Origin: Lytechinus variegatus
Lineage: Eukaryota > Echinodermata > Echinoidea > Temnopleuroida > Toxopneustidae
NCBI RefSeq assembly: GCF_018143015.1
Contig: NC_054746.1
Coordinates: forward strand, 28,609,129 to 28,673,128
DNA length: 64,000 bases
Direction: 5' to 3'
Shown in pieces: positions 12,679-39,700 of the stretch; the stretch's first letter is position 1; the number at the start of each line of letters is the position of its first letter. Under the pieces are notes generated by a model. It saw only the letters and a list, made by a program, of their open reading frames with translations, made no database searches and was not told the origin of the DNA. Position numbers and translations under genes: made by a program.

Positions 12679-13619
12679 TAATGCATAGTGGGTATATGCC
12701 GCGGAGGGGACCCCCATTTTCACACTCAAATTTCCGTTCCAAGGCATAGCATTTTTGCCTTGTTGAGAAAAAAAACAAAGAAAGCCGCTCCAAGGCATAG
12801 CATTTTCTTCTTATCGAGAAAAAAAGAAGAGGGAAATCCGCTCCAAAGCTTCGCATATTTTTCGTTACGCCGCTTCGATCGCATTGAATGAGCTGCAATT
12901 TTGGTGAAAAGCGGCCACAGAGCTCCCCCGGAGGAGGCCGCGCTAGCTGCATCATCCATAGGGATGCATACGCACTCACACGCTGGTGATCCGTTCCAAG
13001 AACCCCTGTTTTCACAAACATTTGTCGTTCCGAAGCCTGTTCCGAGGACCCTCCTTTTTGCAATAACCCCGCTCCAAGGCCCCCGTTTTTTGTCTCGCCC
13101 GCTGCACACCCCCACCACATTTTGGTCGAGTGTCCCCCCCCTGGGCCTCATACACTTGACTTGAGACAGGCAGTGAAAAAGGTCAGTCAAAGCTGACAAG
13201 CATTCAGGTTGTTGTAAAGTATTACTTTTTTATTGGCAAGTTGAATTGAATTGAATTCTCTCCCCTTATTTTTCTTTCAATTTTTTTGCACCTCCAATAG
13301 AGTGCAGAGGGCAGTCGCTATGCCCCATTGCATGATTTGCCTATTTTTTTTTCAAAATAAGACTAAAGTAAAGACTAAAGAGGAAAGGTTTGTTTATTTC
13401 ATAAATATCACTGACCTCACATGACCTTTGATCTCGACTTGGCAACAAATTATTAATAAAATCTTATAAAATCCAATATTCATTGAAAAGGTGCACTCCA
13501 GGATGAAGATATTTATATTTCAATAAATTGAGTAAAATTAACAGAGCAAAATGCTGCAAATTTGATCAAAATTGGATAACAAAGTATAAATTGCATTTCA
13601 AAGATTTGCATTATTTCAC

Positions 13620-14830
13620 TGAAACAGTTCTGGGCATAATTTGTGAACAAATTTTCGGCATTACTCCTATGTGTTTAAGATCGCATGCCCGATCTTTAAT
13701 GAAAATCAGAAGTCCTAAAAAATTGAAACCAGTGGGATTCAAACCTGCCATCTAAGTCTCTGGGCAGCGACTCAACCACCATGCTATTCTGGTTCACGGC
13801 TAAGCCACGATGAACAGGAATTCAAATACCCTCTATCCTCTTCTTTCTGACTCATTAATATGCAAATGCCATCCGCCGTGGACAATAGATAGTAAATAAA
13901 GAGGCTTTAATAGGAGGTCATAATAATTTATGAACAAATTTTTGGCATTACTGCTATGTGTTTAAGATTCCATGCTTGATATTTAATGAAAATCAGAAGT
14001 CCGAAAAAATTGAAACCAGTGGGATTCGAACCTGCCATCTACTGCTCTCCGGGCAGCGATTTATAACCACCAGGCTATTCTGGTTCACGGCTGAGTCACG
14101 ATAAACTGGAATACAAATACCCTCTATCCTCTTCTTTCTGACTCATTAATATGCAAATGCCATCCGCCGTGGACAATAGATAGTAAATAAAGAGGCTTTA
14201 TAATAGGAGGTCATAATAATTTGTGAACAAATTTTTGGCATTACTGCTATGTGTTTAAGATTGCATGCTTGATATTTAATGAAAATCAGAAGTCCTAAAA
14301 AATTGGAACCAGTGGGATTCGAACCTGCCATCTACTGCTCTCCGGGCAGCGATTTATAACCACCAGGCTATTCTGGTTCACGGCTGAGTCACGATAAACT
14401 GGAATACAAATACCCTCTATCCTCTTCTTTCTGACTCATTAATATGCAAATGCCATCCGCCGTGGACAATAGATAGTAAATAAAGAGGCTTTATAATAGG
14501 AGGTCATAATAATTTGTGAACAAATTTTTGGCATTACTGCTATGTGTTTAAGATTGCATACTTGATCTTTAATGAAAATCAGAAGTCCTAAAAAATTGGA
14601 ACCAGTGGGATTCGAACCTGCCATCTACTGCTTTATGGGCAGCGACTTAACCACCAGGCTATTCTGGTTCACGGCTGAGTCACGATAAACTGGAATACAA
14701 ATACCCTCTATCCTCTTCTTTCTGACTCATTAATATGCAAATGCCATCCGCCGTGGACAATAGATAGTAATATAGAGGCTTTAACAGGAGGTCATAATAA
14801 TTTGTGAACAAATTTACTGCATTGCTCCTG
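13620..14830. repeat. Tandem array (~4 units, ~290 bp) of a tRNA-like repeat
   Basis: The marker TGTGTTTAAGAT recurs at 13671, 13959, 14251 and 14544, with a worn fifth start at 14830 (steps 288, 292, 293, 286). Each unit contains, on the minus strand, a tRNA-like block: AGCCTGGTGGTTA (A-box-like) and GGTTCGAATCCCACTGG (B-box), for instance at 14310-14390. The rest of the unit is shared A/T-rich sequence. This is most simply a tRNA-derived SINE amplified in tandem. A lone fragment of the unit sits at about 52361-52440. Confidence 0.8.
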
Positions 14831-17530: not shown

Positions 17531-17624
17531 ATGGCAGATGAAAATAGACGGTTGGTGTCTGTTCTTGAACAGCACACTAAACAACTTGAGGAGCTACTGG
17601 ACGGAGTCAAGTCCAGGGTCAAAG
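17531..17624 (+). CDS. SELENOL: Selenoprotein L coding exon 1
   Basis: Encodes residues 1-31, starting MADENRRLV; charged and helical. It ends AAAG before donor GTGACA, phase 1. An in-frame TGA at 17498-17500 precedes the ATG. A possible acceptor (CTTCAG at about 17511-17516) suggests that a 5' non-coding exon joins here. Confidence 0.85.
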
Positions 17625-20600
17625 GTGACACCTATTTCTGATTGCATCGCATTATACCAAGGCTGTGTTTTCAAACAGCAAGTTGCTATTCCAAATATCA
17701 AGATTTTATTGTTAACCAAAGATCATAATTTTGATAATAAATGAACACATATTTGTAAAGCTTAGATTCCCCATATTTATTCAGTGCAACACAATATATG
17801 ATGAGATTTCTTGAATGTTCATTTTCAGCCTTTTAAGAAATAGAAAAATCACTCAGAAATAAATAAGTTTTCTTTTAAGAATCCATATTTCTTTCGATAA
17901 TTAGAAAAATATTTTTGCTGTAAAAACAGGAAGATATTTATTTTGCTGTGATTTTATTCATCACTCTGTTTATTGATAGTACCCATGCATTTTTCAACTA
18001 TGTTAGATGCCATGGAAGGCAGCCATTATAAAACAAATTTGCCTTAAGGCCTACTTTCCACCAAGTATTAGCTATATCCAATTATCCAGTCTTATTGTTT
18101 AGTTGTTTACCATTTTTTTTTAATTCCACTTTTAATGCAATGGACACTTAGTATATAGATCTACAGGCTTGACTGGTCTCAATGTTTGTCACCCATTTTA
18201 CTCTTTATTCAAGAAAATAATATGACTTTATCTTGTTTTCAGTCTTATTTCAAAGGAGATGAAGCATGTAGTCACTTTAAAGCTATCACTCTGATTCTTC
18301 CAATCTAGTTTCAATAATGCCAGAATAAAATTACTGACTTGTTGGTTTCTGTTGAAGGTGAACTTATGATCACCTCCCGTTTCTCATTTGATTTTACATT
18401 ATATATTGGGGAAGGAGGTGGGTGGGGTTAAAAAACATTAAATTTTATTTTCAAGCTAACAATTTTTTTTTCTAATTACTCCTACAAACAGATACTATGC
18501 AAGATGTTGCAGAAATGGGCATTTCTCAACTTGGTCGGGCAATTGGAATTTACTACTCTCTTTTCACGAGGTATGTGAAGACCCCTTTTCCCTTCTCTCC
18601 TCCCTCTCTCCTATCCCTTACTTTCTCCCTATCTCACTATCCCTCATTCCCCTTCCCTTTCATTTTTATTATTATTGATTTGTTAATTAGTTTCACTTCC
18701 AATGATGGTAACATAAGATTGGCGTAGAGAGTGTATTCACAAAATTAATCAGATACTTTCCGCCTTGTAAGACAACCTACACCTTTTCTGCATAGCTGCC
18801 TTCATGAAAACCAAAAGATGATTCTAATCAAAGTCTCTACTGCAAAAGGAATCAGTTCGGCAGTTGGTTTATATTGTTTTCTTGCAGATTTCTTGCTAAC
18901 ATAACCACATTTCTGAAAATGTTGTATTTTTGCAACATTCAAATTGTAGATACATGTGTCCATCATTAATCAGCAACCTTCATTTATTGCTGTTGACATG
19001 AACATTCACTTCACTTAAGACTTAACTCTATTGAACTTGTAACATTGTATGTTCAAACACATACATGGTATTCATGTTGGTCCGTAAACCCAGACAGCAT
19101 GACATCTGAACTAATACAGAGACGCTAATGACAAAACAGGTCAAGGAAGTTCAGAAATGAGACAATGGATGGAATGTAAAATATAGAAAAATAAAGAATT
19201 AAGAATTCATCTATTCTAGGTTCACAGATGTTTTCATAATTGTCATACCATAACAATTGTCATTCCATAACAATTGTCATTCAACATGGTTATGATCAAT
19301 ACATGTAGTATCATACATGAATATGCAAATTAACACATTAAGCTGTGATATACATGTAAGTCTTGATTGTGAGTTTTTTAATTCTGATGATTTATTTCAG
19401 TAATGTTTCGTTGTTGAATTTTCATCAGTAATCTGTCAGTTACATCTGACCTCTGAGCTTCATTAGATTGCAAGATTCAGCAAAAACATTTTTAATGCAT
19501 TTTGACATAATAGCATAATCTACCTAACATCCGACATGATAGCTCATCCCATTTGATTTCCCCCAAGAAACTGTCATATTTTTTTTCAACCTGTCACTTA
19601 ATGCTAATGATATTGAGGCTGAATGTTTGTATTCAAAGTTAATTTATTCAAAAGTTAACGGGGAGAGCCATCCTGAATTCAGAGAAGAGCTTTTATTTCA
19701 ATAGGCTAATTTCAGATCTGGAATAAAAAGAACATAAAGCTGTCAAATGCGACTGAAATTAGCTATGCGTAGAGAAACATTGAAGCACTGTGCACTAAAT
19801 CCTAGTTTTAGGTGAAAAGTTTAATACTAGTTCACATTTCCATTCTCATACACCTGCTGTTTCCATATTACATAGATGTTTATTAAACCTCACCTACCTG
19901 AGTTTATCGGGTCAATTTAATTGTTTAGGTGTTTTAAACTGTCTGGGACAGTATTGTTCTTTATGCAAGACTGCTCATACCTGCTAAGTGACATCGTACT
20001 GTTATGCTTAATTGACCATGAAAATAATATCCTGGATTTGTCAACATATTTGATCAGCCGAAAGTTCATGAAGAAAGGTAATAATTATAAAGTAAGATAA
20101 AGTTTCCTTCCCTTTTAGTTTTTATCATTCAAAGTTTTGAGCTACAACCTTTGTTCTATGAACCCCCCTGAAATAATACCATTTGAGAAAGACAAAAAAA
20201 AAATCCTTCTTCGCCAAAGAATCTTTATGTTGGCTAATTTTCCTGCTTGGTATTGCAATACCGGTACATACATGTACTTAAAAAAAAGTTTTTTTCAGTA
20301 AATTCTAAATCAAGGACAGATTGAGGGGTTGAGCACAGGAGGAACATTCCTCTTTTCTGTCCATTTTTTCTAAACACAGATAGTATCATTTGGTATGTAG
20401 TGCCCCCTTCCCCCCAGCCCCATTGGAACCTGGGTGGAAATAGGTTAAGATCTTTTCGGGAGCTTGATATACATTTCTTTTGAAAGAAAAAGTGGCAGAT
20501 TGTTATTTTAATACATTTGTTTATTCGTACACAGATAGCATTCCCCTTGTATGTAATTCCCCCATCTCCCATTTTAAAATCTTAGTTGGATATACTGTAA

Positions 20601-23189
20601 GAATGTATAAATACCCCCATTCTCTCATTCTCGTAGGCTATATTTTGGGAGTACCCAGTTTTTGAGGCTTATTCAGATATCAAAGGTGTGACAAAGCTGA
20701 AACAAAAATTGTGTGTACAAAGGGAGTAATTTAACGGAGACAATTACCATGACAGTTTGGAAGTAGGGAGTCCTTTATATGCTTAGTGTTCGTCTTAGTG
20801 TGACCATAGTAGAATAAAAACATGTCTTTATATAAAGGATCTACAACATGATCAGTTTCCAAAGGAGACAGATTTATACAATGATCCATCATGAGGAAGA
20901 TATAATTTCTGTGCACACCCTAAAACACAGGCAGACAGTTATCCTGAAATAGTGGCCTTTAATTCTGTTAGGGTTTCAGAACACATTTTTTTTCTTTAAG
21001 GAGACCAAGAAATCTGTACATGTTCTGCAACAAATGGTCTCTTTAGCCATCCTTTGATCTATAAAAATAGAAAGACCAATAGAATACCCTTTATTACATA
21101 ATAAACCTTCAAGATAAATATGACTTTTCCACACAATGAAGACTTATAATCTTCTTTGATGATTTCTTTCAGTTTGAACGTTGTTAGTCGTTCAGATCTA
21201 GAAACCATCTTCAAGCGTCATTTCCACCACCCACCTGTCCAAAATGCAGTCTCAGACTTAGAAGAGCTTGAGGTAGGTCTCTAAGAATTTGCCAGATACC
21301 CTCAAAGCAGTTAGAAATTCATATTTTTTCCACTTTTGTCATTAATTTCATTATTATGTGATTTATTTCATAATTGGAGTTTTCTCAGAGATGTTGCAGA
21401 GACATCTGCAACTAGCCAAATTCTGGAGTGGTAAACTAGTCACAAACTAGATGCAAGTCCAGTAAGATGACCCCTACTGCAAATTTCTATAATACAGCAC
21501 AAATATGGCAAAAAATAAATTGGCCCCAATAATATCTAAGACCAATGAGAGGGGTATAGAGGCCCAATCAATAGGGCATCCATTAATCTAAGCCTTATTG
21601 AATATGTCAGTGATCTGGGGCCCGATTCACAAAGCTTAGCAATGATCATAGAACAATTTTTTTAAAGATTGATTGCATTTACTACAATGAGCAATTAATC
21701 GTTAAAATCAAGCGTAAGATCAATCGCTAGTCTTTGTGTTACAGAACCCTGATCTAGTTTTATAATGTCTGGTGTTTTTTCATAAGACTTTCACTAATAT
21801 GCTTTAAGATTAGATTTATGTATTTCTGTTAGAGACTATAAAAGTTCTGGGTTTCATTATCTATTGATTCGGTTGGTTGGAGGCACCACTATTCTTCTAT
21901 CACATTTCATTGTTTGGTTATTTCTTTTGTAAATCTATACAATACTTGAATGCTTTCCAATGATGTCTGATGGCACATACATATATTTATTGTAGATGTT
22001 TAAATGTGAAGAAGTACTGCCAACAAAATGAATGGAAATTTTATATTGTATACAGGGTGAATGGGATGACTTCCTAGAAAGAGTCCAAAAGCAGATCTCT
22101 GGCCCTGGTGAGACACATTCTTCCCTTATTGTAGGATCCCAAGGACCATGTGAACTGATGGTGAAGAATGTAAGGAGTGGAATGTGAGTTTTTATTACTT
22201 ATTTTGACTCTTAACTACTACCCCTTCATTATTAAATGCACGGTTGATTTGTTATTGTTATTTGGTTGTTTTTTTACCCCAACCTACTTGTAGTTTCTAC
22301 ATGTATATTGTACTCTGTAAATTTGAGATAAGAAGAGTCTAGCATTAGATTTCTCTATGTGACTATGTTGATAGTGTGCATGTGGATTTTTTTTCATAGA
22401 AAAGCCCTTACTAATATGAGTCCTGAATTCAATGTATATTTATCATTCCCCCCCCCCCCCATACTGTACTGGTAATTTAAATGGCCATCATTCTGAATTC
22501 ATGTGTAATTTGAATAAGGCCAAAATTGTTAACTTCATCACACTAATCATCATGTACTTATATTTGATTTTGTTTGTTTCAAATTTGCATTTATTAAATG
22601 CAATAGCACCCTATAGGAAGCTGAAAGTCTTAGAAATATTTGATGTATGATTCATTTTTTGTTAAGCTATTGAAGACAAAGTGGCCACAACAATTTGTGG
22701 GTTCATCAAATAACGTCTGATGTAGAGCATAGGTAATTCCTAATAAAATATATCAGAAGAAATTGATCAAAATTTCGTTTTATATTGAGCCAATTATTAT
22801 TGTATAAGTTTTGTTTCATTTAAAGCTTTAGAAAAAAAAGGAATTCAATTCGATTCAAAATGGTCTTTATTGATAATCAAACATGTTAACAATCATACAT
22901 GAAAAAACAGCAAGAGCTGGAAAAATCATGTTTACAAGTTGGTTTTGGTACATTTTTAAATACATAGTAAAAACAATAGTAAAATGCATTAAAAAATGTT
23001 ATACATTTATTAAAAGTTAATACAATTTAGATAAAGCATAAAAGGCAATGAATATGATGAATAAGTGAGTGTAATATGACAATGGCAGACTTGAAGGAGA
23101 GGAGACTGACACTTATTTAAATGACAAAAAAATTGTATAGCTTGGGAGGGGATGACCATCTTGCATTGCCTTTCCTAGTCTACACACTC

Positions 23190-23251
<62 letters not shown>

Positions 23252-25685
23252 GGAAACTGAAAAAAAAAACAAATCACTGTTGCAAATTGGCAGATTTCAG
23301 ACCTTCAAAAACATACATGATTCATTTCTGCTACATGTATGTCATGTAAAATTTAAGAAAAAGAAAGAATGAAGCCCTCAAAAAGTAAAAATGTTGCCAT
23401 AGTAGCTGATCAAATAAGTATGGATTCCAATAATTAGAATTAGTTTAAAAATTGAAATATATTAAGTACTTTATTTCTGGGAATTCTGGCATGGAAACAG
23501 AAGTCAATTTAGACAGATATGTGATAGGTTCTTTAGTCCAAGTTTTTTTTTTTACTTAGTCTCCTGTTCAAAGGTGAAACTTTAGCTGGAAGTTTTCTTT
23601 GCAAGACAGTATGGTATGATTGTACCAAGAGTTCAAATATATTTTTGTGCTATCAACCTTTATGCTTGCTTGATCATGCCTACAGAATGTCAACATTGGC
23701 TACATACCTGGATGGTACAAGCCATGTTCTCCTTATCCTACTCCGACACTTTGCCTGACTACCGTGACGCACCCACGTAGCCGAACTAGAGAGACGGTAC
23801 CAAGAGGTCAAGGAGGCTGGTGGTCGTGTCTTGATTGTCTCGTTCGGCTCACAAGAGGGTGCACTTCACTGGTTAGATGTGACAGGATGTCCATTTGATA
23901 TGGTGACGGATGAAGAGAGGATGGTAGGTTGCAATTATTGTCAGTTTGTACAAACAGAATTGTATGTTCCACACCTACTACCCAACTTGTTGATCTCTTG
24001 TTTCCCTTAATTGCAATTTTGTATGTTGCTATGAATTTGCTCAGTGATTATTATATTAAATTTACACAAATATTTCAACATAATAATTACAATTGGTACT
24101 TTGCCATGAATTTGCACAATTATGTTTATATAGAATTTGCACAATTATTTCAACATAACATCATGATTTTGCATGTTTTAGGATGGTGTTTCTGGATTCA
24201 CCTCGTTTACAGCAATCACCCTAACCACCTTACAACTTTTTGAACGATTCAGTGCATCCTCCATCTTTTAAACATCCCCATTAACTTTGAGCTCTTAGTT
24301 TTTTTCTCTTCATGTTTCTGTCATTTCTAACTGTACGATCACTTTTATGAAATACTGTCCTGCTTTTTATTTCCTCCTATCAGATTTACAAGGCGTTTGG
24401 CCTACAGGTGTCCATATCCAAGGTTTGGCAGATCAGTGCTATGTTGTACTATGCTGAGCAGAAGGCTATTGGGACTGTGTTGCCTAAGAAACTAGACAAT
24501 GTAGAGGATGATCCAAATCAGGTAGGTCATTTGCATTGAGATCATATTGATGAGTTATCATCGAAGTACTGTAATCGATGGCAACCATAAAAGAACAAAA
24601 AAACTTCAAATGGATTATGCAATGAGCAGTGTGTATTGTGTCAGTGTACAGATTATCTTTCGTCATTACTTAAAAAAGATCTCCAGATAGAAATTTCCAT
24701 AAAAACAGCATCCAAACTGAATTGGTCTATAGTGATCATATTATTTTTAGGATGGTACAATGCAATTTGAATACATCAGACTCCCATTCTGAGATACTAC
24801 TGTTATTCATCTCTCTTTTTTCATCTCCTGTAGATGGGTGGTGATTTCATCCTGAATCCAATGGGCATTGTATCCTTTGTACACTGCAGTAAATCACCCC
24901 AAGATAGACCATCTGTAGATGAACTCCTCAAAGCCATCAAGGTACATGGAATTTATTTTTAATTCACTTAAAATCTAGTAGTGTATTCATCATATTTAGA
25001 ATCAGCCTAATTACACCAATGTGAAAAAATTTTATACAGGAATTCCCATTTTAAGTTAGTTACACTGTCTAATGTTATATATTGATAAATGATCAGAGGG
25101 TAACACAACATTTGCTCCTGTGCCAGTTGCTCTGGGCTTAATTGCGTCTAAGATATAGGATCTTAATATATAAGATATAGGGTTAGGGTTGCAATAGGGT
25201 TTTATGTTCGGTTTAGGGTAGGGTATAGTGTTAAACCCAAGGTTGGAGATGGCCATACAATGGGCATGTGGAATTTAGAGCTGAGCAATTGTTACAGGAG
25301 CATATGTCATGGAACTGATCAGAGACACCTTGTTGTTTTCATGCGAGCAATTCCATAATATAATCAAGCTCTTTGCATGTCTGACTTTGCTCACAGACTA
25401 CTCAACCATGTTAAAGAACATTACAGAAATCATTTCAGGAAAGACCGCCATATAGGGTGTAGGGTATGGATCTTGACAAAATATTGACAAATTGAAGTTT
25501 ATAAATAGAAATTCTTTTGTAACTCTCTTGTGAATTGATGATATAGCATGATGAGTTGTTTTTGTAATTAATACCTTGCTTTGAATTTTCTGTGATCAAA
25601 GTACCTGTTACTTTGATGATTTTATTTTTTCTTTCTTTTTCAACAGATAATGGACTTAAAAGATCAAGTTGAAGGTAGCGCATAA
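17531..25685 (+). CDS. SELENOL: Selenoprotein L (peroxiredoxin-like 2 fold, UxxU redox motif), 8 exons
   Basis: Spliced CDS: 17531-17624, 18492-18570, 21173-21272, 22056-22183, 23686-23923, 24384-24521, 24834-24941, 25647-25685. All introns are GT-AG and phases join to 924 nt (307 residues, stop TAA). Residues 1-115 are helical and charged; residues about 116-300 match the thioredoxin-fold, peroxiredoxin-like 2 family (FGSQEGALHWLDVTGCPFDM, then KVWQISAMLYYAEQ, then GGDFILNPMG with a DRPSVDELL tail). At the redox position, where relatives have CxxC, the frame reads HFA-TGA-LP-TGA-RTH, giving Sec158 and Sec161. This Sec-x-x-Sec spacing is the signature of selenoprotein L, a family known from fish, aquatic invertebrates and some bacteria, in which the two Sec form a diselenide. 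The ATG is the first after an in-frame TGA at 17498. The substrate is unknown. The alternative, a pseudogene with two nonsense codons, is unlikely because every other codon and splice site is intact. Confidence 0.92.
18492..18570 (+). CDS. SELENOL: Selenoprotein L coding exon 2
   Basis: Follows acceptor CAAACAG and ends ACGAG before donor GTATGTG. The leading two bases complete the Asp codon from exon 1. Encodes residues 32-57, including GISQLGRAIGIYYSLFTR. Confidence 0.85.
18571..21172. other. Selenoprotein L intron 2
   Basis: 2.6 kb, AT-rich. Only minor direct repeats (CATAACAATTGTCATTCCATAA near 19250-19280) are seen. Confidence 0.8.
21173..21272 (+). CDS. SELENOL: Selenoprotein L coding exon 3
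   Basis: Acceptor TTTCAG, donor GTAGGT, leaving phase 0. Encodes residues 58-91 (SLNVVSRSDLETIF at the start, SDLEELE at the end), a helical acidic segment before the redox domain. Confidence 0.87.
21617..21750. mobile_element. Worn MITE in selenoprotein L intron 3
   Basis: Left end GGGGCCCGATTCACAAAG and right-end complement GGGTTCTGTAACACAAAG form diverged inverted repeats. TGATCT lies on both sides. Its CACAAAG ends resemble the younger element at 61.3 kb. Confidence 0.55.
22056..22183 (+). CDS. SELENOL: Selenoprotein L coding exon 4
   Basis: Acceptor ATACAG, donor GTGAGT, phase 2 at the end. Encodes residues 92-133 and part of 134, starting GEWDDFLERV and entering the thioredoxin-like fold (KNVRSG). 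Confidence 0.87.
22184..23685. other. Selenoprotein L intron 4
   Basis: Contains the (TA)n tract and a GATTCAAAATGGTCTTTATTG stretch at 22850 that resembles the end of a dispersed repeat. No coding exon. Confidence 0.8.
23196..23249. repeat. (TA)n microsatellite in selenoprotein L intron 4
   Basis: An uninterrupted TA run of about 54 bp, 440 bp before the Sec-encoding exon. Confidence 0.95.
23686..23923 (+). CDS. SELENOL: Selenoprotein L coding exon 5 with both Sec codons
   Basis: Acceptor CTACAG, donor GTAGGT. The correct frame continues from exon 4 through TGA at 23756-23758 and TGA at 23765-23767 with no other stop, giving residues 134-213. After the UxxU motif come THVAELERRYQEVKEAGG and then a beta strand (RVLIVSFGS), the usual order after the active site in peroxiredoxin-like 2 proteins. 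Both other frames are broken or give no family resemblance. Confidence 0.92.
23756..23767 (+). other. SELENOL: Two in-frame UGA (Sec) codons, UxxU motif
   Basis: The twelve bases read TGA CTA CCG TGA, flanked by CGA CAC TTT GCC upstream and CGC ACC CAC GTA downstream, that is RHFA-U-LP-U-RTHV. Both TGA codons lie where related thioredoxin-fold proteins carry redox cysteines. Reading them as Sec is inferred from family, position and the intact frame on both sides. Confidence 0.9.
24384..24521 (+). CDS. SELENOL: Selenoprotein L coding exon 6
   Basis: Acceptor ATCAG, donor GTAGGT, phase 0 at both ends. Encodes residues 214-259, starting IYKAFGLQVSISKVWQIS and ending DNVEDDPNQ. The FGL-x(5)-KVW pattern is typical of peroxiredoxin-like 2 proteins. 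Confidence 0.9.
24834..24941 (+). CDS. SELENOL: Selenoprotein L coding exon 7
   Basis: Acceptor CTGTAG, donor GTACAT, phase 0. Encodes residues 260-295: MGGDFILNPMGIVSFVH, then a DRP and DELLKAI tail. This is the late beta-beta-alpha part of the redox fold. Confidence 0.9.
25647..25685 (+). CDS. SELENOL: Selenoprotein L coding exon 8 and stop
   Basis: Acceptor TTCAACAG. Encodes the last 12 residues (IMDLKDQVEGSA) and TAA at 25683-25685. The terminator is TAA rather than TGA, which avoids confusion with recoding. Confidence 0.85.
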   Translation: MMDLKDQVEGSA

Positions 25686-26285
25686 ACTTCCGTCCCGAGC
25701 TTTCTGAATGTTAGGAACAAAATCCTGTACTCGGGAACAAAATCTAATCACTTCCAAAGTGTATTTCCAATAATTGGAATTAAACATGGATATTGAGCAA
25801 GTACCAATAGAAAGTTTACTGTATTTTAAATGCATTTGTGTCTTAGCTATAACCCAAAGAGGTTTTTGTGATTCTTTGATATTGGCAACATGTACAATAA
25901 TTTTTTTTTGCACTGTTAATCTCAATTTTACTTTGTTATTCCTTTAGGCTTAGATTGCCTGAAGATTTTTTTTTAGGTATACCCAAAGTGTGAAGAATAA
26001 AATTCACAAATCATGAGTGTGTCACTTATATTAGCCTAGCATTCTTTTGAGTATTGTGGACTTTGCCTATCTATCCTAAAATTGTTTAAGTATTCCAGTG
26101 TAATGTATATTTTCAGTACCTATTGGGTGATTTCAAGTTTGGTATTGGTGAAATCATGAATTTTGTTGCCTGACCTATCTCCAATTTTAGTTGACAAAAG
26201 TGATGAAATCAAGTTTGTACTATAAAGGTTTTTGATAACTCAGTACTGAGTAATTTTAGTCTAAGCAGTGAACACCAACCTCATA

Positions 26286-26350
26286 TCAAGTTCAATGGCT
26301 AGAGTGAAGTAATTTCAACACAAACACCAGCTATCAACAACTGAACTTGA
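26286..26350 (+). other. Stem-loop in selenoprotein L 3' region
   Basis: TCAAGTTCA (26286-26294) is the exact reverse complement of TGAACTTGA (26342-26350). A second inner helix (ATGGCT with AGCTAT) can stack on it. It lacks the ATGA/GA core, so it is not a SECIS, but it is a structured element within the predicted 3' UTR. Confidence 0.4.
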
Positions 26351-26974
26351 AGTCACCGATACTTTAATATGAGTAGAGTTACATATTTAGATCGATGCCT
26401 TGTAATTGGTGATAAGACTGTTCTAATGACCAGCATAGTGTTCATTTATTGTGCAGTAATGTGTCATATGTGTGTATGTTAAATTGTAATACCTCTGCAA
26501 GTTACCACTACTTAAACATAAAATTGGGTATTTTCTTTTTTTCTTTTGTGCTAACATTTTCTATGAATTCAACTTGCTTGTCTTATTGTAAGAGTTGATA
26601 TATTTCATATCCTAGATAATTGAAGCATGTGCAATAATTGAGTAATGCTTGGTATGTATCAAAGTATCCCCTTCATAGAAATATGAAGTCATTGGATTTA
26701 CCCAATGTACCAAATCTTTCAGTTCTTGAAAGGTTACTCAAGTTGACCTGTATTCATTTAATTATCTGTCAGATTTTCCTCACAGGGAATTATAAATTTT
26801 CAACTCTCAGGGTTTAGTAAGATGGGGTAGTTTGAAGTATCTATGCAATTTTAATGTCCAATATGATTGTATTTTCTATTGTTTGAGAATGTGCAAACTT
26901 TTTCATTTGTATGACAAATCCCGAATTCATTCTTCATGGCTCCTTATTTGCATGTCTAGCCAAGGTTTGAACTG

Positions 26975-27020
26975 ATGACGGCTCTAACAAAAACCACTTC
27001 TGTGGGAGTCACTGCCTGAT
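26975..27020 (+). promoter_or_regulatory. Candidate SECIS element (type 2-like)
   Basis: Core elements are in order and about the right distances. ATGA is at 26975-26978, then 10 nt, then an A-rich unpaired run at 26989-26993, a small apical hairpin CCAC-TTCT-GTGG at 26994-27005, and TGAT at 27017-27020. ATGA and TGAT can form the non-Watson-Crick quartet, followed by GGC/GCC pairs. The middle of helix II has mismatches, so the fold is imperfect by eye. The element lies about 1.3 kb after the stop and 73 nt before AATAAA at 27093. No other stretch of the 3' region that I scanned has ATGA, AA and GA at proper spacing. Confidence 0.55.
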
Positions 27021-27092
27021 GTGAATTAGAATTCTGGCTAAACATGTAACTCAGGGCACTTGTAAAATGGATGGGTTGAAAATTGGACAAAT

Positions 27093-27098
27093 AATAAA
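27093..27098 (+). terminator. Candidate poly(A) signal of selenoprotein L mRNA
   Basis: AATAAA downstream of the SECIS candidate. An earlier AATAAA at about 25996 would give a short mRNA lacking that element and hence unable to decode Sec through it, so the distal site is preferred by inference. Confidence 0.45.
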
Positions 27099-27280
27099 TA
27101 CTGACAATTTGTTTGAACATCTGTTATTAACTAGTAGTACTTATAAGTATTGTATTTAGATGATAAAGGACGATTGTTTTTTCTTAAATATACATGAATT
27201 TACAAATTAAAGATATGATATATGAAATGACCATGTGCCAAATACTGAAAGATATTTGAATATTAGAGATTGTATCATTA

Positions 27281-27437
27281 TGTGGAGTATTGTGGCCAAG
27301 TGGATTAGTCTCCAGACTTTGAAACCTAGGGTTGTGGGGTCAAATCCCAGCCATGGTGTGTTTTCCTTCAGCAAGAAATTTTTCCACAAATGTGCAGCAC
27401 TCAACCAAACCAAGGTGAGGTAAATGGGTACCTGATC
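27281..27437 (+). repeat. tRNA-derived SINE, truncated copy
   Basis: Reads GTGGCCAAGTGGATTAGTCT (A-box region) then GTGGGGTCAAATCCCAGCC (B-box region), followed by TTTTCCTTCAGCAAGAAA and AGGTGAGGTAAATGGGTACC. The same order is found inverted at 50.4-50.7 kb, which defines the family. Confidence 0.8.
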
Positions 27438-29210
27438 GCAAGACTTTTTGAACTATTAACATTTTTCTGCGATCTTGAATGATCTGATATGATCACTACA
27501 ATTACTCCAAGGTTAAGATCACATTTCATAATCATGGTGCGAATCGTGAAAGTGTGAACTAGGTATTAGAAATGTTCAGGGTTTGAGGTTTCACATAGAT
27601 TTGTGCTAGGTGTAATGTAGTGCACAAAGTAAGGTTGATGTTTGTACAAATATTTATAATCAATCAATTTAATAAAATGATATTTATTTAATAATAAATC
27701 GCTAATGTCAGCAACTCATTTATTTAAGAATTTAATTTGATTAAAATCCACTTGTTTAGTTTTAATAGTGTACAAGGCCCCGCTGTATATACTTGTCCAT
27801 CAAAGTTATTTTCAATGGAAATTTTGCCATCACTTGAACTTGGGCACTCTGCAGAGTGAAATTGAGCATTGTATAGATTGTATCATCAATTTTAATCACA
27901 GAAACTGAGCTCAATTGTCAATCAAAATAATATTTCTATGTTTATCACCACCACATATATCAAAATACCGTGTTTTCAATGCTGTTCAAAATCAGGGTAA
28001 ATGATATCACTTAAAAAGCTTTCCCTGTAATAACTTGTTGTGGAAAAATCAGTCTAATGGCCTACCCTCACTGGTGGATTTTAGTCAAATTTTAAGGCAG
28101 TGATTTGCACCACAGACACTACAAGGGAAGACCGGACAGTAAGTAAACCTTCGCACATCGGCATGCAGCTGTGTATTAAACATATGGGGGAAATGAGAGT
28201 TTGGAAGAGGGCACAAGGAAGGCGCATGTGGATAATTACACATTTCTTTCCCAGAAAACTCCAACATATATTTATCTCTGATTTTAGGAAAAAAAATTGA
28301 AGAATTTTTTTTTAATGTAAAAATTGTCTATTCCTTCACCCCTCCACCATTGCACACAACCCAAAGTAGCGAAATGCGACTGTCTACTTTCTAAACAATG
28401 TATGGTGCTTTTCCCCGAACATTTCATTATGCACTCTATTGAGTGTCCAGTCTTCCTCTTGTAGTGTCTTCGTTTGCACCCAACGTTAGTCTTTATTTTG
28501 GGGTAAGCACATATCAAATCTATCACTTGAATGCCAGTCACTTTGGACCTTTAAATACTTACTTTGATATTGATTGCATCATTTGGTATTTCAATCTTAG
28601 TTTTGTCTTAGTTTGGTGATGATCTGAAGTTAGCAATCAGAGCCAATGTGAATTTGCAGCAAAAATGCATTCATTTTCATAACTAGTAACAGCACACAAA
28701 ATTCTGATTGCCAACTTCATTCTATAAAAAATAGATGAATCAAGATTTTGGGTCGAGTAACAACTTTGACCTGGAAGTAAAATTGGAGCTGTTGCCATTA
28801 TTCGATGTGATCAAAAATTGGATGCAAGGTTCAATATGCTTACAATTGAAATTGAGCAAAATATTACATTTGCTGAGATGTTATGGGATTCCACGATGAT
28901 CCCCTGAACAACATTGCAAATTTAAAATTTGCATGGTTTAATAAAATACTGTACATCTAAAATATTCAAAACATCACTCTGTTCCTCTTTTTCTGCTTCC
29001 ATGTAATGAACATGATTGTCTTTTGAAAATCATGTCAGTGGCTGAAAAAAATAATATTGGCCAGTATCTTTTTCGAGGCTTAAATATGTGGTTCAATTAG
29101 TTTGACATACAGGGCAAATATTACAGATGCAACAAGTTGCTATTTGCCTGTGCAGACCTGGCTGTGAATTACTATATCAAACAGTGATGCAACTCGCTCT
29201 TATTTCACTT
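27438..29210. other. Convergent intergenic region
   Basis: Between the 3' ends of selenoprotein L and RNF8. Includes an imperfect inverted repeat (GATCGCA at about 27435, TGCGATC at about 27468). No gene seen. Confidence 0.6.
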
Positions 29211-29422
29211 AAGGCTTGGCCACACCGCCCGAGCGTTGTTGGAGCGGTAGGGAGAGATGGTCGAATTTCGCTCACAAAATTGGGGAAAAAATCGAAAATA
29301 AAAATCCAAAACAAAAAAAAACAATCGAAATCGAAAATGGTGAACGGGAGCGAGCGGTGATGATTTTTTCTCTCCGCTCTACGACCGCTCCAACAACGCT
29401 CGGGCGGTGTGACCATGCCTTT
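29211..29422. mobile_element. 212-bp hairpin MITE between SelL and RNF8
   Basis: AAGGCTTGGCCACACCGCCC with GAGCGTTGTTGGAGCGGT at the left is inverted at the right, giving a near-perfect ~40-bp stem. A TTA repeat at each edge may be the target duplication. CpG-rich ends, AT-rich centre. Confidence 0.8.
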
Positions 29423-29511
29423 AGGTTGTAGATTTGTCTTAAGCATGCTGGTCTGTAAGAATGAGCGATATTTAACAATTACACATAGGCATAATATTTG
29501 AAGATACTGGC

Positions 29512-29517
29512 TTTATT
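29512..29517 (-). terminator. Candidate poly(A) signal for RNF8
   Basis: AATAAA on the minus strand about 980 nt past the RNF8 stop. It is one of several AT-rich candidates, so use is uncertain. Confidence 0.3.
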
Positions 29518-30069
29518 TGAGAACAGTATTTGCATTTGTACATTAAGATACAAATAATGAAAACATTGGCAAACTGACTATTTCACATCAAGGCAAGGGA
29601 TTGATACACAACAAATAATTCACCCTTAAAGCTCATTCATAACCAAAAAATACAATTATTGTAATACCAGCAAATAACACCAAGGAGTTACATGTAAATT
29701 AAACTATTCTCATATTTAATTTCAAAACATTTGTATGGATGTCTTTTGTCACGACAGATACATAGATATAAAATTCAATGAATAAAGCTCTGATGGGAGT
29801 TATAAGTCTGTGCAAATTTTATGTTAAAGTGCTTATTCCAGTTCATCTTCTGGAAAAAAAAATGATTCAATGATATGTTGATTATTATATTTCACAATCA
29901 TGAAACCCATCCAGCACATACTTGCCAAGGCTGGAAAATGTACTCTAGCAAGTCCAGATGTTTGTGAATTGACATGGTAAAAATTCAATGAAAGTAATGA
30001 CTGTTCTACATTTCTCTGGATCAGCAGGTATGTATTGATATTGTAAATAATACATCTGCTCTTAGCAAT

Positions 30070-30162
30070 GAGATTCAAAAGAAGAAAACAATTACCACAA
30101 AGATGGAGAGCAGTTATGGCTCTTACTGCCTCATCTGAATTTTGAAATTTTACAAAGCACAT
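30070..30162 (-). pseudogene. Possible RRM-like exon fragment
   Basis: The minus strand reads MCFVKFQNSDEAVRAITALH, which has the pattern of an RRM RNP1 strand and following helix, ending CTTTGTG|GTAATT like a donor. No partner RNP2 segment was recognised, and it lies in the predicted RNF8 3' region. It could be a relic exon, a lone exon of another gene, or chance. Confidence 0.25.
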
Positions 30163-30498
30163 TTATCAGGAAAATTATTGAATGTTGGCTTCAAAAGATC
30201 AAATTCTCAAGCCGTTAAGACCTTGCATTGTCCTTTAAAAAAAACCCATGAACCTTCTTACCTATGGGAAAAGTTTCTTAGGGAACAAACATGATCCAGG
30301 AATGGGGAGAAGAGAGAAGACTGTGTACAATTGACATCAATCTCTATCGAGGCACTTTGGCAGACAAAATATGAAAATAATTTTGTTTAACCTTTAAAAT
30401 TTTGTGCATATAAATAAAATGCAACAGCAAAAAGATGGTTGCCTTTTTATGATTCCATCAAAGTTCTCTTGAAATAAAAAGTGAGGATTAGGTACTTG

Positions 30499-30722
30499 TT
30501 AGTAGTAATCATCATCCTCATTTTCTGAGTCTAACTCCTCGTCGGAAGTGTGATAGTACCGGCGCATGCCATGGCGACCAAACCGATCAAATCTGTCGTA
30601 GTACTCAATTTCTTCATCCTCTTCATCTTCGTCTTCATCCTCCTCATCAGAGATGACAAGAGGGACAGAATTGACAGTGGTAACACCAGCATTGGGCCTG
30701 GTGCTGTAGTTTGGATCCTCAC
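30499..30722 (-). CDS. RNF8: RNF8 exon 8 (acidic C-terminal tail)
   Basis: The phase-1 donor of exon 7 joins acceptor TTCTAG here to give GEDPNYSTRPNAG, then ISDEEDEDEDEEDEE and a Tyr/Arg/Asp-rich end (YYDRFDRFGRHGMRRYY, finally SENEDDYY). TAA is at 30499-30501. The tail has no counterpart in human RNF8. The open frame and phase match support it being real; transcript evidence would settle it. Confidence 0.75.
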
Positions 30723-33700
30723 CTAGAACAGAAATAGAAAAGAAAAGTTTGAGGATATCATGATCTGCGATTATGATTTGAACACGCTAGAGATACAGTT
30801 AGACCTTGCTTCTGCCACACAGGGAATCCTACCAATCCATGTACATGATACCAAGACCCAAGGAGATGATTGATCTTAATGAAGAGTAGAAAGAGTAAAA
30901 TGAAAAGAGCAATTTAATACAAGTTTCATCAAACTGGTTATAGACTAAGAGTTATGGATGTTTGAACTTACTATGGAACCCTCAAATTTATTTTACATAT
31001 TTATGATTATCTCCGCCTTACCTTGACATATGTTGTGTGAATTATATTTTCCAATGACATATGTCATGCTTAGGAGGCAAGATGCAATTTGAAAGATAAT
31101 GAGGAAATTTGATAATTTGTGTATAAAACGATTGGAGAGTTGCCCACAAAATCAGCTATTTTGAAGCATATTTGCCAATTTGAAGATCCCCATTGATAGT
31201 ACAAGATTTGTCAAACTTCCATAAGTTTTTTATTTCAAAACTCATTTTTTATAAAACTTCTTTATATCAATCCTTTCATTTTACTCTTCGATTCTCTTCT
31301 TTGGATTTGGTTTCCTTTCATCCTTTGCCTGCCATAGATATAATCCCTCCTATGCCACATTGATATTAAATGTGCAATCTTAAGAAAGGTTTTTTAAGGA
31401 ATATGCCAATTACAGCATTAATTGAAAAGAAAAGCTTTGTGTGTACAATGTGTGCATCACTATTATGAATGTATGTATTTACAATACATGCACTCTTGTG
31501 TGTATTATGAATGAAATGTGAGTAAAAGATTGCAGTGTGCTGTATGTTACTTTAGTTGAAGAGACATTTTATGATATTTCACTCATTTGTTCAAATCATA
31601 CTACACAAACAAGCAAAGAAAGTTTGAAACATTTCATGTATCCAGCATTAATCAGTATTGTAATTATACAAATTTTGGTTCATAATAGATATTGAGTTGC
31701 AAGCAATTTTTGAAAAAAATTATGTTCACTTTACTTGTCTAATGGGTATTACCTTTCACAGGACTTTGATTCTCTCAATATTAAAGGGATCGTTTAACTT
31801 TGTGAGCAGCTGATTTAAAAAATTCTCAAACTGAGATGAAACATGTGTATGAGTGCCTGTATTTGTCCTCAAAACCCTGAAAAAGACCACAATATTGGAT
31901 GAAAAACTCTAATTTAGATACAAGTAGCAATTTATTAGCTTGATTTTGAGAACCGTCTAGTAGATGGGTTCCAGCCTATGACCAGTTTTCTCCAATTCAA
32001 AAAGTCTGTTGGCTATGTTGACTGCCTTCTGCTGTGTGTATCTCCTATACACACGCTATTATTAGCTGCACTGTACATTCAGTGTATACCTTGTACACAC
32101 TGTATGTAGGTCATGCTGTGTTCATCTAGAGTTTAATGTGTTGTGTTGCACAGATTCACTCTATACACATAGACATTGAAACCGACTTCCAATTATTTTC
32201 AAACTTTGGTTTACATCTCCAAGGTTTTAAAATTGATCCTGTAGATATAATACTTTGAAACCTTTGGGATGGTATTTTTACACTATAATCCTATTAAAAT
32301 GATTAGCCCATTTTCAAGAACCAAAATGAGATTTTTTTAAATCAGAACAAAGTGAAATGATCACTTTAATTTAAATTATACAATTGAGATATAAACTGCA
32401 ACACTTTTCATGAATTTCATTCTGCATTGCTCTAGATAATTTTCAAATGAATTTCACATCCATGAAAAAAAGACATTATCATTACATTCAGAACCATTGT
32501 GTTACAGACAAAATAATTACTTTCAATCTTATGTTCAATCAGATGTTTATAATGACTTAAAGTTCATTCACCCTTCCTCTCTTCAACTATCTCCTTTCGT
32601 CTCTGTTTGGCTTCGTCTCCTAACTTCTCAATCATCTTGTCAATGTAGTTATCAAGGACAATGGAGCGACTGTGTGAGGTGGTCTTCACGCGGCAATTCG
32701 GGCATTCATTCTTCCGCTTTAACCAAGTGTGTATGCAGTATGCACAGAAAGAATGAGAACAGTTCAGTGTTGTCGCCTGAAAAAATAAATGATCAAAAAT
32801 ATATTTCATACAGAGAAGTATACCTGTATTTTGATTCTAATTATTATCATTTTTAATTAAAAGGGCAGTAAAGTCATGTAAGTTCCAAAATATGCCTTCT
32901 TCCCCCATTAATTTGTCACTTAATTTTCACTTTTAACATTGACAGAGATCTGTAATTGTAAATGAAGTATATCCATAGATCATAATATATAACCGAATGG
33001 ACAACTGGCTATTTTGAATAAGAAAAATCAAATAAATAAATTAAAACAGGTAGCAAGTTCCAACACTGCAAACAAAAAGACATGGAAAATATGATATGAT
33101 AATGTGCAATTTTCAATCAAATGATGTTGGAATTTTGGAGTTGCATATTGATTTTTATGTTACCCAAGGGTTATATTATTATTTTTTGTCTTTCTTTCTT
33201 TTATTTTTACTTATCAACTCTTCACAATGTAAAGTTACATTGTAATTATTGTTACACTGTATATATTACACTGTTAATATTGATCATAATTTTTTCAATA
33301 ATTTCAGGTATTTAATCTCATTCAAATGTTTTTTTTTCCAGACCACTCTTTTACTTGGTCATATTAATAAACTAAATGATGATAAGTACCTGAATGAAGA
33401 GTTCTGAGCAAATACTGCATTGGAATTCATTCTCCATGACGATGGTAAAGTCATCAAGAGCAGACCTTTTCGCATTTTCTATCTTCACTTTTTCCTCTTC
33501 CTCTCGTTCTAAGCGGCTGGCTTCCATCTAGAACCAAACAAACACAATGTGATTGTCATAAATGTGATGACAGAAAATTTGTTAAGCGACAATTTTCCAG
33601 TCTGCATTGCCATTCAATTCTGTCTAGGCCAATTTGTAAATCATCAAGAGAGTTCTGGAATTGCAGTAGACAGACAAAATTTGCACAGGTTTTGGTATTG

Positions 33701-36700: not shown

Positions 36701-39700
36701 GAACGTGGGCACTTGTCAATACAATTAATTAGACAAAAAATAATTAATTAATTGGATCAATATAGTAGAAGAGTGGAAGAGCCATACTAAGGGTACTTGC
36801 AAGAACTATGGAAGAAGTTTCCAGAATCGCCCTCCATTGTGACATCACCATTAGTCATAGGTGTTTAGATTCTACAAGCGATACTCATTTTCCCCTAAAA
36901 ATTGAAACCAGTTAAGAGCTTTATTCTTTAGTATTCTTTTTCTGCAATACTATTGATGATATTATTAATGGAAGTGAACTTGGTTGAATTTAATTATTAA
37001 AGATATGTATGTAATCATTTAACTGATTAGTAATTCCAATCAATTTTCTACTTCATAATTTGTTGCGATAACAGTACTTAGGCAGTGGTTTTTCTCTAGA
37101 GTTTTTTGTCCCTTGCTTTGGCACTTGGCCTGTGACAGTATTCTTTCAATAATCATGAATAGTTACTGTGAATTAGTCACTACTGTGAATTTAAATCAAT
37201 TTACCTTTTCTTTCTCATGTTTGAGTTCTTCTCGTTGTTGTTTGAGCTGTTCCATTAGAGCTGTCTCTTTCTCCTTGACCTGCTTTTCCAACACCTCCTC
37301 CATCTCACGTTTCATCTTTGCCAACGCTTCTTCCTTCTCCTCTAAGAGTCTCTTTTGCATTTCTACTGCTTCTTCTTGAAGTCTTTTTTGCTCTACAAGC
37401 TCTTTGTCCTTTTGCCTCAGTTCCTCTTCCTTCTCTTCCACCCTGGTCTTGTATTCAACCTCAAGCTTGGCATTCTTCTCCTCCACCTCCTCCTGCTTCT
37501 TCACCGTCGATCGAAGTCTTTCAAGCACACTCTCTCCCTTGTTCTCTCCTTTCTTCTCTGCTAAGAGTTCTGTTATTGCTTTCAATTCTTCAGCTGTCAT
37601 GTTGGCCCCTACCTCCTCCATGAGCTGCCTAAATCCAGAGTTCTTAAGATTACCATCTAGAGAAAGTCTAGTCCTCTTTACATCAGATGAGGTGGAAGGT
37701 TCATTGAATGCACTACTTCTAACATTATGTTCATCTCTTTCTTTTCGTTTTCTATCACCCGATGATGAACAGCCAAGACTACCCGACTGAGAATCGGACT
37801 TTACACTGTTTTCGCTGTCCATGGGTTGAGAAGATTTTGCCGCCAACTTGAGCTTGATTTTTTCGGCCCTTCTTTTCCAAGCTCTCAGGAGTTTGTCCAC
37901 TTCCTCTGCGGAATGGTCTATGCAGCACACTGTGAAGATAAACTCGTTCATTTGTCCTTTGTTTGCTTGACCCAACTCTAATTTATCACCAATTCTCAGG
38001 TTTGCCGGCTCCATTGGTTTTACCCGATTGTCATTAATCCGAACACCATTCAGGCTCTGAAAACATAAAACAGATAATCAATTTTCAAAGCTCAATTGAT
38101 ATACATGTACAATTCTAAATTTTAGTATAGGATCAGAACAGGTTACTTACTGCTATGTATTCTCATAAGGTATAATTCACCCCTATATAAAATACTAGGA
38201 TTTATTTCCTCCATCAACAGACAAGACAAAGGATAACATCCTAAAAAACATGATCAATAATTCAGTTCAAAGTTCAGTAACAACGAGTATGACCCAAAAT
38301 ACAAACATTTAGTATAATAATGTGAATTTCAATGACATAACATACCTTGTTATCAATCACTGTCCATCCTCCATCTTCCACTTGTTTGAAGGTACAGTGC
38401 TTTCTTGAGAGGAATAGATTGTTCTGTGACGCTAGCAACTGAATGCTCACATCCATCCCTCTTCCAACAGTTACCTTCATATCAAATTTAAAGAAGAAAT
38501 TTGGACGAAAATGATTATTGCTTGCCTGGGAAGCAAATATCAGCATCTATTCAAAGTAGTCACAACTTGTTAATTATTTATTCCATATATAAGGGCACCA
38601 TACGTTTATTCGGTGGCATTCAGGCCATCACACACACAAAATAAGAGTTTATATGGAGCCTTGTCTAATATTACCTCACTTTTGGCATGTATTACTTGTT
38701 TATATCTTGTTGCTAGTTGCTAAACAACCATTTAATGAGTTAATATTGCTCTTTGTTTCATCTTGATGTTCAATAAATTTTGTCATTCCTTGACTAGTTG
38801 CCATGCCAAAAACAAAAATATGAATTTCAAACTCACATTGTTCAGTATACCCGTTTGTTGTATGTCCAGATAGGTTATTTGTCCGGACAAGATGGTAATT
38901 TCAGGAACTTTGAGATTAACAATTATTTAAGAATTGAAAGTAATATCACACAATATTACAAAGCACAAATATTTTAAATTATTTTAGTATTGAATGCACC
39001 AATGTTGAGAAAATCCAAAACAAAATATAATTCAATTTGCTAGACTGTCTGGACAACAGATCACCATCCTTGAATGTCCCCCCCCCCTTACTAAAACGAG
39101 ACATAGAACTTTCTTTATTCATTGTAAATTCCATCGTGTCCGGGAGGGGGGGGGGCATGTCTGGGCATCTAAAAACCTTACCCTAATATTGAGCGTGAAT
39201 TCATTTTAAAACCGATATAATAATAATTTGATAAAGTCCCATATATTCTTGAAAGTAAATGTGCCCAAAATCTCATAATTGAGAGAAATATTTGATCTTC
39301 TTTGAAAAACCCACCAGCCAGTCATTTACATTGAACAAAACAATGGCGCCCCATGTCTGCTCTCCCATTCACTCTAAACACAATTCAGGGATATTTTATG
39401 AGAAAGACTGAATTTTAAGGCTGTTACATGAAATGCCAGAAATTCAATTTTTTCCACCACTTTGACTCAGATTTTTAAAAATCTGTCTGGATCTAGATCT
39501 ATAATATATTGCAGGTGTTAAGTTTGTGGTCGTTGTAATACTTGATATTTTTTATAATAAGGGTGAAATTAAGCACTGTGTAGGGAAATTGTGAAGTGGA
39601 TGTGGATAGCAATTAATAAATGATGAGTACGAAGCGCGAGCTGATATTTTTATTATCATTCTGACCTAGGACCTGGACATTCTAGGCCTAAGGACATTTT

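Follow-up and report, generated by a model that had tools for sequence, protein, structure and literature searches.

A probable selenoprotein L gene with two in-frame UGA codons in the sea urchin Lytechinus variegatus

Selenoprotein L (SelL) is described, in the accessible text of one report, as a protein with a diselenide bond that is confined to aquatic organisms, i.e., fish, invertebrates, and marine bacteria (PMC2397514). Among vertebrates, the available part of another source places it in fishes only, and a single SECIS serves both selenocysteines (Sec), which lie two residues apart (PMC3316567). UxxU forms of a Prx-like 2 family were noted in ocean metagenomes, where SelL is called a Prx-like protein, as far as the accessible text goes (PMC2398784). 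According to similarly partial sources, SelL is known from Ciona ESTs (PMC2874816) and is listed for all but one (Lg) of six invertebrates, the carriers being Aq, Ta, Nv, Ct, and Bf, with Amphimedon (a sponge), Trichoplax, and Nematostella named among its carriers (PMC3473315). In the accessible portion of the open literature on SelL, no statement on an echinoderm SelL was found. In the invertebrate list, we take Lg to be a limpet, Ct the annelid Capitella, and Bf amphioxus.

Here, a stretch of 64,000 nucleotides from L. variegatus, referred to as the window, was analyzed. It contains a locus that is, with high confidence, a SelL gene, in which UGA codons 158 and 161 would be read as Sec by means of Sec-tRNA(UCA) and a 3′ UTR SECIS to give a redox enzyme. 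The direct basis of this reading is the gene structure at the DNA level, the family match, the position of the UxxU motif, and the tRNA-Sec genes.

Gene model and the exon with two TGA codons

The coding sequence was rebuilt from the DNA by splicing eight exons of the + strand within positions 17531–25685. The spliced product has 924 nt, which corresponds to 307 codons plus TAA, and the Sec residues fall at positions 158 and 161. Each of the seven introns begins with GT and ends with AG, and all eight exons are in phase. The G+C content of every exon is above that of its own flanks, in the case of exon 8 just slightly.

17531..17624, + strand: coding exon 1 with the ATG start; open frame, GT donor; one further frame open; without homology support
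18492..18570, + strand: coding exon 2; open frame, AG/GT borders; open in all three frames; without homology support
21173..21272, + strand: coding exon 3; stop-free in the coding frame only, AG/GT borders; without homology support
22056..22183, + strand: coding exon 4; stop-free in the coding frame only, AG/GT borders; residues from 118 onwards align locally with a bacterial relative (L013)
23686..23923, + strand: coding exon 5 with both putative UGA(Sec) codons (158 and 161); frame, borders, family match (NF040769) across the two TGA, bacterial alignments
23756..23767, + strand: predicted U-L-P-U redox motif, TGA CTA CCG TGA; read from the sequence and the splice
24384..24521, + strand: coding exon 6; frame and borders, NF040769, alignment with bacterial relatives
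24834..24941, + strand: coding exon 7; frame and borders, second NF040769 place in the genome search
25647..25685, + strand: coding exon 8 with the TAA stop; AG acceptor, frame

As in exons 3 and 4, the coding frame is the only stop-free one in exons 6 and 7. Residues 1–117 are derived from splice signals and open frames only, upstream of any homology support.

The earlier note had placed an exon of 238 nt at 23686–23923, which continues the frame of exon 4 and has two TGA codons in the context RHFA-U-LP-U-RTHV. The re-analysis confirmed its borders (AG acceptor and GT donor), length, frame, and motif; both in-frame stops are TGA, namely codons 158 and 161, and the surrounding protein sequence reads LLRHFA-U-LP-U-RTHVAELERRYQEV. 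The other two frames of this exon contain 2 and 6 stops. By chance, 79 codons would be free of TAA and TAG with a probability of 0.077 if the composition of the exon itself is assumed and of 0.013 if the local one is used, so the open frame by itself is weak evidence. What raises exon 5 above chance is the homology that spans both TGA codons.

It had also been claimed that standard gene finders would either end the protein at residue 157 or skip exon 5 and thereby delete the active site. The first part is likely; a standard translation gives 157 residues. The second does not hold: the length of the exon is not a multiple of three, and therefore a plain skip shifts the frame and runs into stops instead of neatly removing the active site.

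Other features were noted in the window. About four tandem copies with a unit of roughly 300 bases were seen by eye at 13600–14820. A RING finger and part of an FHA domain are encoded in − strand exons at 32564–32836 and 38274–38546; SelL is on the other strand, and these exons point to its 3′ end. If they belong to one gene, the pair of domains presumably recalls RNF8. Further on, EF-hand matches at 54507–54908 (− strand) mark an exon of a gene for a calcium-binding protein.

Family match and bacterial relatives

The spliced protein was compared with the NCBIfam and Pfam models. It matched NF040769 (SelL-related redox protein) with 140.6 bits at a cut-off of 120, and residues 144–293 were aligned with positions 23–172 of the 173-position profile with no net gap. 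Among the Pfam models, AhpC-TSA_2 (PF13911, 45.6 bits, cut-off 27) and AhpC-TSA were above the cut-off, whereas MtrG, ASCH, and DUF6674 remained below it and were taken as chance matches. The suggestion that the flanking exons join in phase is borne out, but the family match starts only at residue 144. In the NF040769 search of the whole genome (869,567,369 bases; all four candidates scored), two matches were obtained, both in exons of the SelL gene. One of them was read across the two TGA codons, and each exon taken singly is under the family cut-off. In the control searches, 6 of 14 prokaryotic genomes gave a signal, none of them over the cut-off.

The two TGA occupy the CxxC site of the family and are separated by two codons. 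When different residues were placed at these sites in the C-terminal 175 residues, the NF040769 score was 137.7 for C/C, 132.9 for C/S, 129.8 for S/C, 125.0 for S/S, 121.2 for W/W, and 120.9 for R/R. Among the four residues tried (C, S, W, and R), the profile therefore favours Cys at both positions. Cys is the usual stand-in for Sec. Given its name, "SelL-related", and its preference for Cys, the model should also admit homologues with Cys.

Bacterial relatives with the TGA pair retained were sought with the pattern L-R-[HY]-F-[GA]-TGA-x-x-TGA-R in the contigs of 84,980 species, one genome each. The scan yielded 27 stretches, three of which are relatives with alignment scores of 276, 251, and 239; the remaining 24 scored at most 59 and were set aside as chance by frame and alignment score alone. 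The three relatives carry TGA-N6-TGA at the same columns and share 36–38% identity with the animal protein over 143–174 residues:

L013: Acidobacteria MAG, 66/174 identical residues
L017: Chloroflexi MAG, 55/143 identical residues
L011: Dehalococcoidia MAG, 51/143 identical residues

All three are above the NF040769 cut-off (153.8, 155.7, and 153.2 bits for L013, L017, and L011, respectively). The motif was fixed beforehand by the scan pattern, and therefore its identity is mostly by construction and the independent evidence lies in the flanks only. The two residues within UxxU were left free in the pattern; LP is present in L011 and L017, and LL in L013. Consequently, the stretch LRHFAULPUR is identical between the animal protein, L011, and L017. 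The bacterial proteins as cut have 181–185 aa, with starts picked by us (GTG in L013). The frame of L017 remains open further upstream, for 369 residues in all. L011 and L017 each have a third in-frame TGA close to the end, which has the look of the real stop and was used as such.

For L013, a structure model with a mean pLDDT of 68.3 was examined. In this bacterial model, rather than in the animal protein, a thioredoxin-like fold was seen, with the motif (44–47) where the first long helix (45–63) starts. A Foldseek search against the PDB gave Bcp-type and AhpE-type peroxiredoxins and ResA; among the 50 rows listed, the TM-score by query length was 0.43–0.62 and the identity 13–25%. At the sequence level, the match of animal residues 157–220 to ResA was not significant (E 0.051).

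In a tblastn search of plasmids, 11 records were obtained and set aside; their identity was below 60% throughout, and their names were those of peroxiredoxin-like or redoxin proteins. No match was obtained in the phage search for SelL relatives, and the genome scan with peptide words of the protein gave 18 stretches, none of them a relative.

Selenocysteine decoding and the candidate SECIS element

The genome was searched with the tRNA-Sec model, with 53 of 59,135 first-look candidates scored. Two of the 25 matches listed were over the cut-off of 47, with 76.9 bits each, and ARAGORN called both places tRNA-Sec with the anticodon TCA. A signal was given by all 14 prokaryotic control genomes (over the cut-off in 5), and therefore a match below the cut-off carries little weight. 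The two tRNA-Sec genes point to a host that decodes UGA as Sec. According to the accessible text of one paper (PMC3328465), SBP2L is the only SECIS-binding protein that sea urchins and some further invertebrates have.

The 3′ region contains one strong candidate for the single SECIS expected of a SelL gene:

26950..27048, + strand: candidate SECIS; long helix I, quartet ATGAC (26975–26979)/TGAT (27017–27020), A-rich bulge, 4-bp apical stem
27093..27098, + strand: AATAAA, possible poly(A) signal, 45 nt past the hairpin

The hairpin lies 1290 nt past the stop codon; in the mRNA, its distance from the first UGA is 1742 nt. In helix I, GCAUGU and UAGCCA are each paired with their complement with a probability of 0.81–1.00, and the inner part (GGUUU) has four pairs at 0.34–0.39. 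The quartet is AUGAC/UGAU, and ten bases separate AUGA from the A-rich bulge. We take this layout to be the arrangement known as form 2. The predicted fold has −28.1 kcal/mol (z −2.79), and 1 of 200 shuffled sequences was equally stable. The SECIS-like fold lies 1.1 kcal/mol above the minimum, and its helix II is weak (3 + 2 bp, closing-pair probability 0.25) in a folding model that has no term for the quartet.

In a fixed ATGA..AA..TGA scan of the 64 kb on both strands, the candidate was the best site with −22.6 kcal/mol; the best site of the − strand had −14.7. A first, stricter scan that asked for six pairs before AA had missed the candidate, which has five, and a looser scan recovered it, with −19.4 for the best − strand site and −16.3 for the best other + strand site. 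None of 1000 Markov simulations of 25686–27800 reached the candidate (lowest −21.4; 40 of 1000 at −15 or below), a count that is not a blind test, as the hairpin had been seen by eye before the scan rules were set. No further copy was found in the window or, by a search that skips very common words, in the 870-Mb genome. As it was the sole match found in the genome, the hairpin is probably not a repeat. Taken together, it is likely the SECIS of the SelL gene, a supported but unproven candidate with a weak helix II. Two further signals, ATTAAA at 25779 and AATAAA at 25996, precede it and, if used, would drop it from the mRNA.

Rfam gave no SECIS in the window at the gathering score, in 25600–30600 with E up to 10, or in 26940–27060. 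In the whole genome, the SECIS_1 model (RF00031) gave at least one match over the gathering score, with 150 of 24,006 candidates scored, and none in the 14 controls. Because many SECIS elements are expected in an animal, we infer that this model finds few of them; the single genome match is a lower bound, and the silence of Rfam on our candidate thus says little. The match itself (38348722–38348787, − strand, 46.3 bits) is on the same contig, about 10 Mb from the window.

The alternative that survives best is a real SelL gene with its true SECIS elsewhere, either overlooked in the scan or carried by an additional 3′ exon. The weak helix II and the missing Rfam match would fit such a case. It is unlikely in our view, given that the hairpin is the best in the window, was not equalled in the simulations, gave no second match in the genome search, and is followed closely by AATAAA, and that the Rfam result says little. 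Much less probable is that the locus is a pseudogene in decay, derived from a SelL-like protein of the Cys type, with two Cys codons turned into TGA. Such a change takes one base from TGC or TGT, but the stops are found at the two active-site codons only, 307 codons run without a frameshift between intact borders, the same two columns are TGA in three bacterial relatives, and the genome has tRNA-Sec genes and a SECIS candidate. True termination at the TGA codons, with a truncated protein of 157 residues or degradation of the mRNA and no reading as Sec, is what standard translation gives, and it is scarcely credible in view of the tRNA-Sec genes and of the family match and bacterial alignments, which run on past the TGA codons to about residue 293 and beyond.

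Proposed function and comparison with known systems

The reading as selenoprotein L, put forward in the earlier note, is supported by NF040769, the three bacterial UxxU relatives, the preference for Cys, the tRNA-Sec genes, and the candidate SECIS. On this basis, the eight exons would be spliced to an mRNA with UGA at codons 158 and 161. Sec-tRNA(UCA) would read both of them as selenocysteine, directed by one 3′ UTR SECIS about 1.7 kb downstream. The protein is predicted to contain a thioredoxin/peroxiredoxin-like domain at approximately residues 135–295, in which U-L-P-U would replace CxxC where the first long helix begins. The motif of such a redox enzyme may then alternate between the diselenide form and two selenols. 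Sec insertion, the diselenide, and the redox role are proposed by analogy with the published family.

The bacterial SelL-related proteins (NF040769; L011, L013, and L017) have the domain and both TGA columns as in the animal protein, and as cut they have no counterpart to most of animal residues 1–117. In bacteria, the SECIS sits within the coding region. From the two Chloroflexi-type bacteria with the identical LRHFAULPUR, it may be speculated that this core is a ready-made diselenide module moved between bacteria and early animals; both UGA would have been kept while decoding passed from the bacterial to the 3′-UTR SECIS, and an added N-terminal region of about 117 residues would give the animal enzyme its own partner. 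We regard this scenario as doubtful, with the odds well against it.

Standard gene finders would likely cut the protein at the first TGA; the results provide a complete gene model for it, together with a SECIS candidate. They also add one animal and three bacterial sequences for comparison within a rare family of two-selenocysteine enzymes.

Compared with the peroxiredoxin-like AhpC-TSA_2 proteins, the protein described here passes PF13911 but scores higher on the more specific SelL-related model (140.6 bits), and it has UxxU where they have CxxC. ResA and the peroxiredoxins with solved structures are Cys-based, and the likeness of fold to them was seen through the L013 model of modest quality. 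As judged from the accessible parts of the cited papers, the gene is a further member of the published SelL family, whose two Sec residues and occurrence in marine animals are already in print. Set beside these published descriptions, rather than sequences, of animal SelL, the protein showed no difference. Like the SelL of fish and aquatic invertebrates, as described there, the candidate model presented here has two Sec two residues apart and a single SECIS.
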